Shown: positions 27,054-29,628 of the stretch, one piece after another
How the letters are laid out: each line of letters begins with the position of its first letter
Position numbering within the stretch: position 1 is the stretch's first letter
Assembly: GCA_945913285.1 (NCBI GenBank)
Contig: CAMEDD010000001.1
Coordinates: 62,001 to 126,000, forward strand
Source of the DNA: Candidatus Sulfopaludibacter sp. SbA3
GTDB lineage: Bacteria > Pseudomonadota > Alphaproteobacteria > Caulobacterales > Hyphomonadaceae
Direction of reading: 5' to 3'
Length of the DNA stretch: 64,000 bases
The notes under the pieces: model-generated
Seen by the model: only the letters and a program-made list of their open reading frames with translations
Databases searched by the model: none
What the model was told of the DNA's origin: nothing
Program-made: the position numbers and the translations under genes

Positions 27054-27575
27054 ATGCGCGGTTTCTTCGCCATCGGCGCCGAGCGGATCTCGAAGCCCAT
27101 GAACCTCGGCGCCCTGATGCGCACGGGCCACGCCTTCGGCGCGAGCTTCGTCTTCTCGATCCGCGCTGCAAAGAACATCAAGGAAGGCCACTGGGCCGAC
27201 ACGTCCAAGAGCGAGGACCAGATCCCGTTCTACCAGTGGGATACGGTAGATGAGATGCAACTGCCGCGTGGCTGCCAGCTCGTCGGGATCGAGCTGACGG
27301 ACGACGCGGTCATGCTGCCCTCGTTCCGGCATCCGCCGCAGGCGGCCTATATCCTCGGCCCCGAGAAGGGAAACCTCTCGCCGGAAATCCTCGCGCGCTG
27401 CGCGCACGTCGTGAAGATCCCGACCAAGTTCTGCATCAATGTCAGCCTTGCGGGCGCCTTGGTCATGTATGACCGCCACCTCTCGATGGGCGGCCACACC
27501 CCCCGACCCATCATGCCCGGCGGATCGGACGCCCCCCGAAAATATATTCCGGGTCCGGACAGAAAGCGGCCTTGA
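27054..27575 (+). CDS. TrmH/SpoU family RNA methyltransferase
   Basis: A 173-residue SPOUT-class enzyme that 2'-O-methylates tRNA or rRNA using SAM bound in a trefoil knot. Motif 1 is in ISKPMNLGALMRTGHAFGASFVF, motif 2 in AAYILGPEKGNLSPEIL, and motif 3 in VKIPTKFCINVSLAGALVMYDR. It lacks an extra RNA-binding domain, so the target cannot be named. The C-terminal tail is basic and proline rich. Confidence 0.87.
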   Translation: MRGFFAIGAERISKPMNLGALMRTGHAFGASFVFSIRAAKNIKEGHWADTSKSEDQIPFYQWDTVDEMQLPRGCQLVGIELTDDAVMLPSFRHPPQAAYILGPEKGNLSPEILARCAHVVKIPTKFCINVSLAGALVMYDRHLSMGGHTPRPIMPGGSDAPRKYIPGPDRKRP

Positions 27576-27595
27576 GGATCGGACTGTAGAGCGCC

Positions 27596-28270
27596 TCAGC
27601 GCGCCCCGAGCATCCGCTGGATGATGCCGAACATGCCGGTGAAGCGCAGGCCGCCGTCGCGCACGGCGAGGGCGTAGCAGATTTCGCCTTCATCCCCGAC
27701 CGGCTGATGGCAATCGTCTGGCCCGTTGATGATCACGTCTCCGGGACCATAACTGCCGCGCTCATCTGTAAAACCGCCCGCGACCACGAGCGTGTATTCG
27801 CTGCCCGCGTGGGAGTGCCGCGGAATCCTGGCGCCGGGAGCAATCCTGTAAAGTTCGGTCTCCAGCCGCGAGCCGGCATTCAGGTTCAGCCGTTTCAGGC
27901 CGCGCCCCATCACCTGCCAGCCGGATTTGCCGACCGCGTCGAGCGCCGCAGCGCGAAGCGGTTCCGGCAGGCCCAGCACTTCTTCCATCGCTTCGCCTGC
28001 TGCGAGGCCCGCTTTCACAGAAGCGGTCTCATCAGCGCCCAGGGCATCGATGGCGGCCAGCGCCCGGTCGAGTGCGCCGCCGCTCAGCGCGGCCATGGGG
28101 GCGGTTTCGAGGAGGCTGCCAGAGATCATCTCGCTGCTCGCCACCGCGTCGCCGATCCCGGGACGCAGCACGCTTTGCGTCTCGACCATCAGCGCAAAAG
28201 CGGGGTCGAGGCAGCCGGCCGCATAGGCCGAATAGAGCTCACTGAAGGAATTGGCGGGCGTATAGGACAT
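27596..28270 (-). CDS. ChrR-like cupin anti-sigma factor with degenerate zinc site
   Basis: ChrR proteins hold an ECF sigma factor inactive through an N-terminal zinc domain and release it on singlet-oxygen stress sensed by a C-terminal cupin. This 224-residue product has the N-terminal helix pattern (FSELYSAYAAGCLDPAFALMVETQ), but the expected HxxxCxxC region reads TQSVLRPGIG, so the His and Cys ligands are absent. The cupin keeps HSHAGSEYTLVVAGGFTDERGSYGPGD and CHQPVG, so its metal site looks intact. It is the gene after the sigma factor (gap 87 bp). ATG 28270 is assumed; no good ribosome-binding site is visible. Confidence 0.78.
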   Translation of the reverse strand: MSYTPANSFSELYSAYAAGCLDPAFALMVETQSVLRPGIGDAVASSEMISGSLLETAPMAALSGGALDRALAAIDALGADETASVKAGLAAGEAMEEVLGLPEPLRAAALDAVGKSGWQVMGRGLKRLNLNAGSRLETELYRIAPGARIPRHSHAGSEYTLVVAGGFTDERGSYGPGDVIINGPDDCHQPVGDEGEICYALAVRDGGLRFTGMFGIIQRMLGAR

Positions 28271-28357
28271 GTTATCGCAAAATTCCGGTGTTTTAAGCAA
28301 CATTGTCCTGATTAAGCGAAGGTCAAGGACCACGAGGCGCAGATTGCAGGCGCGGAG

Positions 28358-29002
28358 TTAAGTCCCCCCTTCCAATTCGCCTCTCAGGCGAAGGAAAGCC
28401 AGCCGGATGCGAGATTTCACCGTGCCGAGCGGCAGGTTGAAGGCGCGCGCGATCTCGGAATGCGAAAGCCCGTCATAAAAAGCCGCCTGAAGGAGGCGCA
28501 GCTGGTCCAGCGGCAGTTTCACCAGTTCGGAGCGCACGATGCCTTCCAGCTGGTCGCGCGCCAGCAGCGCGTCCGGCTGTTCAATCTCAGGCGGGCGCAG
28601 CATCGGATCGTCGGGGGTCAGTTCCGGCCGGCGTTGGCGACGCTGCGCGTCGATGCGGCGGTTGCGGGCAATCCGGAACATCCAGGTCGAGACGGACGCC
28701 TGATTGCGGTCATACATACCAGCCTTCTGCCAGACCGTGATCATAACGTCCTGCGCGAGCTCTTCGGCTTCGGAGTCACTCGCGCCGAGACGCAGCATGT
28801 AGCTCTTGATCCGCGGCGCATAGAAATCGAACAATTCGGCAAAGGCTTCCTTCGAACGGTTCGCCGAAATCGCCGCCATGCAGTCGGCATGCCGCTCGCG
28901 CTGGGCGGGATCAACCGTCCTGACTGTCTTGTCGAACACGCGCCGGGCCTTTCCCGCTGGAACGAAACCACTGTCGGCCTTATTTGCGCGCAAAGCAACC
29001 AT
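28358..29002 (-). CDS. ECF sigma factor, ChrR-associated (RpoE-like)
   Basis: A 214-residue RNA polymerase sigma factor with region 2 (AFAELFDFYAPRIKSYMLRLG, EELAQDVMITVWQKAGMYD, VSTWMFRIARNRRID) and region 4 (LPLDQLRLLQAAFYDGLSHSEIARAFNLPLGTVKSR). Pairing with a ChrR-type gene downstream places it with ECF11/RpoE-like factors that respond to photo-oxidative or oxidative stress. The N terminus is about 35 residues longer than the core family and the true start may be the internal ATG near residue 43. The 104-bp region to the divergent ialB-like gene shows no clear autoregulatory TGATCC promoter. Confidence 0.88.
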   Translation of the reverse strand: MVALRANKADSGFVPAGKARRVFDKTVRTVDPAQRERHADCMAAISANRSKEAFAELFDFYAPRIKSYMLRLGASDSEAEELAQDVMITVWQKAGMYDRNQASVSTWMFRIARNRRIDAQRRQRRPELTPDDPMLRPPEIEQPDALLARDQLEGIVRSELVKLPLDQLRLLQAAFYDGLSHSEIARAFNLPLGTVKSRIRLAFLRLRGELEGGT

Positions 29003-29106
29003 GACGGTTAAATTATCCCAGTTACACTCGTTATAGGTGTTTCTCGTGGCCCGCTCAGGCTGCGATTGCCACTAAGTTTCTTGCAACTCACTATGGGAAT
29101 AAAATA

Positions 29107-29628
29107 TTGAGCACGCAACATAAAATATGCGCGCCCCGGCGCGCTCTCGCGATCGTGATCGCCGCGCTCCTGCTCGCGGCCCCCGCCTCGGCAGAAAAGA
29201 CAGCCGTTGGCCGGTTCAAGGACTGGGCGGTGTTTACCGAAACTGTGGGCGGCGAGCTGATCTGCTACGCGGCGACAGAGGCGACCTCGAAAGCGCCTTC
29301 CCGCGCCGACCACGGCGCCGTCTGGTACTATGTGACCAGCTGGAAGTCCGGCAAGGCTGCCAACCAGCCAAGCCTGAAGACCGGCTTCAACTTCAAGGAA
29401 GGCTCAAGCCCGAAGGCAAAGGTCGGCGGCTCGTCGTGGACGCTGTTTCCAGCAGGACCGGAGCTGTTTGCCGAGAATGCCGACGATCCGGCGATCGTTT
29501 CGGCGCTGCGCTCGGGCGCCAGCCTGACCGTCGAGGCCACCTCGGCGCGCGGCACGTCCGTGTCCTACAAGTTCTCGCTGAGCGGATCGGCGAGCGCCAT
29601 CGACAAGGCCGCCGAGGCTTGCCGCTAA
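29107..29628 (+). CDS. IalB-like (invasion-associated locus B) secreted protein
   Basis: A 173-residue exported protein with a signal peptide (ALAIVIAALLLAAPASA, cleaved near residue 29). It has an IalB-type beta domain starting at KTAVGRFKDWAVFTE and including ELICYAATEATSKAP. In Bartonella, IalB affects erythrocyte invasion; in free-living alphaproteobacteria the role is unknown. The only in-frame start before the signal peptide is a TTG at 29107, with GGGA nine bases upstream. It is divergent from the sigma factor. Confidence 0.72.
   Translation: MSTQHKICAPRRALAIVIAALLLAAPASAEKTAVGRFKDWAVFTETVGGELICYAATEATSKAPSRADHGAVWYYVTSWKSGKAANQPSLKTGFNFKEGSSPKAKVGGSSWTLFPAGPELFAENADDPAIVSALRSGASLTVEATSARGTSVSYKFSLSGSASAIDKAAEACR

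Follow-up and report, generated by a model that had tools for sequence, protein, structure and literature searches.

The ECF sigma factor and the ChrR-like anti-sigma factor encoded side by side in the window (the whole 64,000-nucleotide stretch of DNA analysed here) most likely form an ECF11 photo-oxidative switch in which the anti-sigma domain (ASD) binds the sigma factor without zinc, the signal is sensed via the cupin domain and autoregulation has been given up, a reading to which we assign a probability of about 0.7. The system has the architecture and the regulon features of ChrR/ECF11 and lacks the sequence feature by which ZAS proteins are defined, an HHCC/CHCC zinc site with Hx3Cx2C. 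A sequence-only reading of the same DNA had posed two alternatives, namely that sigma binding no longer needs zinc or that the protein has become a regulator of another kind. The former is favoured here, and the latter disfavoured, because the sigma/anti-sigma pair is kept in 93 of the 94 zinc-less sigma-type loci of the family, the ASD is under purifying selection, the predicted fold is that of ChrR and canonical promoters precede the target genes.

The anti-sigma ORF (27596-28333, 245 residues) lies downstream of the sigma gene on the same strand (Table 1). The sigma protein contains Sigma70_r2 and Sigma70_r4 domains; its best PDB match is RpoE of Rhodobacter sphaeroides (2q1z_A, E 3.7e-42; next solved ECF 8.1e-16), and its ECF11 membership is assigned after this closest sequence. 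For the anti-sigma protein, the best phmmer matches are to ChrR (2z2s_B, E 1e-19, followed by 2q1z_B) and cover both the N-terminal and the cupin parts. Against TIGR02451 it scores 124.2 bits, which is 0.3 bits short of the curated cut-off of 124.5 bits; 52 of the 101 family genomes contain a protein above this cut-off, the window's genome not being among them. The sigma protein probably starts at GTG 28939 rather than at ATG 29002, since a start codon is kept at the former position in the window and in all nine close relatives checked (9 GTG and 1 TTG in all) and a promoter-like element overlaps the latter. The anti-sigma protein probably starts at ATG 28270 rather than at GTG 28333, with Met found at the same place in 8 of 12 relatives. 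Beside the sigma gene lies a divergent IalB-like gene (29107-29628, plus strand).

Table 1. Features of the sigma/anti-sigma locus, in coordinates of the window
Feature	Position	Strand	Remarks
ECF sigma factor, RpoE/ECF11-like	28358..28939	-	Probable CDS, from GTG 28939; called ORF 28358-29002, from ATG 29002
ChrR-like anti-sigma factor	27596..28270	-	Probable CDS, from ATG 28270; ORF open from GTG 28333
Anti-sigma domain	28079..28252	-	Residues 28-85 of the 245-residue ORF; N28, Q53, R57 and I60 replace the zinc ligands of ChrR
Cupin domain (Cupin_7)	27674..27931	-	Pfam E 8.4e-13; metal ligands H173, H175, E179 and H209 kept
Promoter-like element TTGCTT-N17-GACAGT	28970..28998	-	Overlaps the called ATG; candidate operon promoter replacing the ECF11 self-promoter

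When the window's protein is aligned with ChrR, the residues that replace the zinc ligands fall opposite H31, C35 and C38 (phmmer alignment, in this order for Q53, R57 and I60) and opposite H6 (multiple alignment, for N28), and E51 occupies ChrR position 29. The region singled out by the sequence-only reading is therefore indeed the ChrR zinc site, and the loss of its ligands is real; it is, at the same time, a trait of nearly the whole family and not a peculiarity of one protein. TIGR02451 matches (E 1e-4) occur in 99 of the 101 genomes of the window's family. Among the 102 loci from 97 genomes that make up the family set (G018, the hit of G099 and most second matches being left out), 99 lack both zinc cysteines (C35 and C38) and three have all four ligands (G006, G016 and G072), the zinc-less sequences coming mostly from one clade, such that these counts do not represent independent events. 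The fetched stretch contains a sigma gene in 93 of the 99 zinc-less loci, the other six being five orphan paralogues (ChrR2, described below) and L134. In the class, 115 of 289 genomes have a match (E 1e-10), two of them from the window's own family, and the class set, from which six genomes and a number of second or broken matches were omitted, comprises 112 loci from 107 genomes, 82 with HHCC, 25 with neither cysteine and 5 with one. A further 12 contig loci (Hyphomonadaceae, Hyphomonas, Henriciella, Ponticaulis and three Acidobacteria-type titles), which overlap the family set and were kept out of the counts, are all zinc-less and each has a sigma gene. Three contigs whose titles name Acidobacteria or Sulfopaludibacter (L006, L007 and L011) are probably mislabelled or mixed bins of the window's family; the proteins they encode share 79-83% identity with its anti-sigma factor.

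A quick maximum-likelihood tree built from 113 sigma proteins places 28 of the 29 zinc-less family representatives in one group (SH-aLRT 94, just under the program's star), and zinc loss in the family thus seems to reflect a single old event together with a replacement. This group is nested in a starred group of 33 that includes zinc-type proteins of family f44 and also altered types (RHCA in f122 and ECKV in f124). The HHCC proteins of the window's family, three in all, cluster together elsewhere (96*), and the remaining zinc-less representative, L121, sits on a long branch outside the main zinc-less group. Across the rest of the class the zinc-less label requires 11 changes on the tree, of which only 2 are forced by starred branches, so that the number of losses there is uncertain. 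Nine genomes of the window's genus carry another zinc-less ChrR (type SQ-L/V; loci L112, L113, L120, L121, L123, L124, L216, L217 and L219) along with a distant sigma factor, a combination that looks like a replacement from another lineage; a canonical self-promoter is present in 8 of the 9 (strict pattern) and ChrR2 is absent from all 9.

The second departure from ECF11 concerns autoregulation. The RpoE promoter of R. sphaeroides is reported as TGATCC(N15)GCGTA (PMC5036791). Scanning for TGATC-N16/18-CGTA within ~420 bases upstream of the sigma core, which was placed in 190 loci, located the motif at 53 of 72 zinc-type class loci and 3 of 3 zinc-type family loci, as against, among the zinc-less loci, 7 of 17 in the class and 8 of 93 in the family, all eight of the latter representing one deviant type from the window's genus. 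With a weight matrix (40 sites), sites of at least 12 bits were found at 50/72 zinc-type class, 2/3 zinc-type family (3/3 at 10 bits), 5/17 zinc-less class and 9/93 zinc-less family loci, and none in shuffled sequence. No ECF11-type promoter occurs upstream of the window's sigma gene, nor is there a matrix site of at least 10.5 bits in the 64-kb window; the earlier remark that the sigma factor has no clear self-promoter has thus held up. The autoregulated sigma/anti-sigma operon, an ECF11 feature, is missing here, which is not decisive for ECF11 membership because the motif is common, not universal, in zinc-type loci (53/72, see above). Since the nearest relatives in the tree, including the zinc-type f44 loci (0/3), are likewise devoid of the motif, the loss of autoregulation may be older than that of the zinc site.

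The operon could instead be read from TTGCTT-N17-GACAGT, a candidate promoter pointed to by conservation: GGTTGC recurs at one constant distance in 51 of the 63 loci of the main zinc-less type (QR-type) versus 0 of 21 other zinc-less family loci, and continues as TTGCnn-N16/18-GAYAnT in 27 loci of the main type. An E. coli hexamer promoter scan of 27500-29300 returned nothing, this element not being an E. coli consensus match. Altered promoter specificity of the sigma factor, to which the conserved GGTTGC and GTTAAGGC blocks had seemed to point as an explanation for the missing self-promoter, was rejected in view of the canonical promoters before ChrR2 and phrA. Another conserved block, GTTAAGGCC-AA-T--GAC, was seen in 30 of 44 dereplicated loci (e.g. 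L100, L043 and L093), ~200 bases upstream of the sigma core codon, and is missing from the window and its nearest relatives.

What might hold the ASD together in place of zinc? In the main type (63 loci), the residues at and around the former zinc site are themselves nearly fixed (ChrR numbering: Tyr12 97%, Glu29 95%, Gln31 100%, Arg35 97%, Val/Ile38 100%), and the second zinc-less type (17 loci) has Asp/Glu29 and Arg35 throughout. An acid at 29 together with Arg/Lys35 is found in 79 of the family's 94 zinc-less sigma-type proteins and in none of the 85 of the zinc type; the other 15 family proteins do not have it, and elsewhere in the class it occurs in only 2 of 25 zinc-less proteins. The pairing is a correlation among related proteins; we read it as a possible substitute for the zinc clamp in this lineage, in the form of a salt bridge between the two side chains. 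Comparison of the window's gene with nine relatives gave dN/dS values of 0.11-0.31 for the ASD and 0.06-0.19 for the cupin; the ASD is hence under purifying selection, and across 13 sequences many of its helix positions do not vary. Gene decay was rejected on the basis of these dN/dS values and the family-wide conservation.

The cupin was said to keep its metal motif, and it does, as HxH...E...H (Table 1). The ligands read HHEH in 208 of 214 loci: 97 of the 102 family loci (four have HHDH and one is cut at a contig end) and 111 of the 112 class loci. Given that the ASD zinc site has been lost widely and the cupin site almost never, the former appears to be dispensable in the ChrR-like family. 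The reverse case was encountered once, in L144 (G356), where the HHCC zinc site is kept and the cupin ligands are lost (NEGK), with no sigma gene in the fetched stretch. As to the fold, an AlphaFold2 monomer model from 13 sequences has a mean pLDDT of 69, with ~67-81 for the first three ASD helices (27-38, 44-56 and 58-77) and ~50 for the low-confidence fourth (87-98). It resembles ChrR across the anti-sigma and the cupin domain (Foldseek 2q1z E 1.3e-14; VIA alignment Z 18.7, rmsd 4.1, 173 residues aligned), which predicts that the order and fold of 2q1z, an N-terminal helical anti-sigma domain followed by a cupin, are kept; being a monomer model of moderate confidence, it carries nothing about the complex with sigma. 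Non-zinc anti-sigma structures do not appear among the 50 VIA matches listed, an outcome that is uninformative either way.

It is against this background that the strongest rival has to be judged, according to which the ASD no longer binds the sigma factor, the metal-cupin acts otherwise, for instance as an enzyme or a co-regulator, and sigma is controlled by its expression level. Zinc is reportedly required for inhibition by R. sphaeroides ChrR (PMC6852236), the first helices are strongly altered in a 17-locus part of the family, and an operon without an ECF11 self-promoter is what one would expect if another regulator set the level of sigma. Against it speak the purifying selection on the ASD, its invariant helix residues, the near-constant gene pairing and the existence of class I ASDs, such as RseA and RskA, that are described as binding their sigma factors without zinc (PMC7406223). 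Taken together, we consider loss of sigma binding unlikely.

Sigma binding without zinc, the reading preferred here, is also in keeping with the genes that the sigma factor appears to control. In the window's genome, a canonical ECF11 site stands 37 bases before the DNA photolyase gene phrA, which is followed by an amine-oxidase-like gene, DUF1365 and a cyclopropane-synthase-type gene (cfa) with overlapping ends. PhrA matches occur in 38 of 41 family genomes, and of 30 PhrA loci read, 21 have the site, always at -54 to -77, and nine do not, the background being 85 of 6000 random windows from the same loci. In Shewanella, ECF11 promoters of this kind are described before photolyase and cfa genes (PMC4336711), and furan fatty acid genes are reported as part of the core ECF11 regulon (PMC6852236). 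The second site precedes ChrR2, an orphan ChrR-like gene on contig C9 (L228:5806-6369) that encodes 187 residues without the zinc cysteines and is followed by DUF6134 and a photolyase-related protein. Promoters of the TGATCC-N15-GCGTA type thus stand before core regulon genes, as is characteristic of ECF11. Because TGATC-N17-CGTA occurs 22 times in the whole genome versus ~23 expected at equal base frequencies, single sites were trusted only where position and conservation agreed; the reversed-pattern control gave 0, but the reversed pattern contains CTAG, and a pattern list drawn up for 21 relatives contained too much noise to be of use.

These observations suggest that the window's sigma factor reads the TGATCC promoters before phrA and ChrR2. 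Another sigma factor could do so; a second RpoE-like sigma serving them was sought in the window's genome (assembly 93% complete), and the candidate was dropped, as none was close (next best 30% identity). With canonical promoters before both genes and no other close sigma, it is most likely, judging from the DNA, that the sigma factor has kept its specificity and lost only its own promoter.

ChrR2 itself has matches of E 2.6e-27 or better in 58 of the 101 family genomes, with an ECF11 site in front of it in all 30 loci read (the best 30 of the 58 genomes). It occurs in none of the 11 family genomes whose pair is autoregulated, compared with 56 of the 84 others (Fisher 2e-5, uncorrected for shared descent). 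ChrR2 may be imagined as a sigma-induced brake where autoregulation of ChrR is lost. The promoter and the distribution could also be taken to mean that ChrR2, induced by sigma, is the effective anti-sigma factor and has displaced the zinc-less protein as the main inhibitor. This we regard as quite improbable: 28 of the 84 non-autoregulated genomes have no ChrR2, the five ChrR2 proteins in the alignment likewise miss both Cys ligands, no sigma gene lies beside ChrR2 in the 35 loci checked, and shared descent remains in the association. Finally, that zinc or another metal is still bound elsewhere, by N-terminal Asn/Gln/Asp, by the Cys next to the AYAAG motif (ChrR position 19, 48% of the main type) or with ligands from sigma, is very improbable, since even though some domains contain one or two Cys/His, the ASD of 38 of the family's 94 sigma-type zinc-less proteins is free of Cys and His, HxxxCxxC and CxxC are found in 0/94 each and no Cys or His column is conserved. 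Equivalent Cys/His ligands at shifted positions, which would have told against the loss of the zinc ligands, were rejected on the same counts.

How would such a switch work? The N-terminal helical bundle would still bind and inhibit the sigma factor independently of zinc, its fold being held by acid 29, Q31, R35 and V/I38 (ChrR numbering) where ChrR relies on the HHCC zinc site. The metal-binding cupin, with its nearly invariant ligands, would read the signal, in ECF11 systems typically singlet oxygen or an organic peroxide, and bring about the release of sigma. Free sigma would then transcribe the phrA-amine oxidase-DUF1365-cfa and the ChrR2-DUF6134-photolyase-related protein genes from TGATCC-N16-CGTA promoters, while the sigma/ChrR operon, no longer its own target, would be read from another promoter. 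The negative feedback that autoregulation provides elsewhere may, in many of these genomes, come from induced ChrR2. The complete scheme, a rebuilt ECF11 switch with an acid-arginine pair for zinc, sensing by the cupin only, a different promoter instead of autoregulation and ChrR2 as a delayed brake, is tentative and, with all its parts taken together, rather doubtful.

The closest known system is RpoE-ChrR of R. sphaeroides (ECF11; 2q1z, 2z2s), which resembles that of the window in the gene pair, the two-domain anti-sigma factor, the cupin ligands and the predicted fold, and in the type of target promoter with photolyase and fatty-acid-modifying target genes. RpoE2-ChrR of Shewanella oneidensis is described as sharing the TGATCC/CGTA promoters and, in its regulon, a photolyase, a photolyase-related protein and cfa; unlike the window's pair, rpoE2-chrR is reported to be autoregulated from such a site (PMC4336711). 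In contrast to R. sphaeroides, the window's system has no ASD zinc site and no self-promoter that could be found, and its genome has a further ChrR-like gene with an ECF11 promoter in front of it. RseA of Escherichia coli and RskA of Mycobacterium tuberculosis differ from the window's protein in having no cupin, in being membrane-bound and in belonging to other ECF groups. Their ASDs are nevertheless described as binding an ECF sigma factor without a zinc motif, as proposed here (PMC7406223), and RseA is said to form the same bundle as ChrR, held by protein contacts (PMC6852236). In RsiW of Bacillus subtilis, the conformation of the SigW complex is reported to be kept without zinc (PMC5358783); RsiW differs in that its CHCC motif is still there, in its membrane location and in its ECF group. 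A survey of class I ASDs describes those with and without the zinc motif as mixed across the tree, ~72% of the soluble ones having it (PMC7406223). Together with RseA, this means that zinc-free anti-sigma domains as such are already known; a description of a zinc-less ChrR lineage was not found in the open-licence literature, as judged by titles and the beginnings of abstracts.

According to a review of R. sphaeroides, the precise role of the ASD zinc of ChrR in the singlet-oxygen response is unknown (PMC6852236). A large natural group without this site, in which the partner, the cupin ligands and the expected regulon are kept, indicates that the roles of the two metals can be separated, and makes structural versus sensory functions open to direct comparison between the zinc-type and the zinc-less groups. 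The findings further suggest that a whole lineage can lose ECF11 autoregulation. With most members of the family lacking the zinc site and apparently controlling the same light- and oxidation-stress genes, the family amounts to a natural experiment on the function of the zinc.
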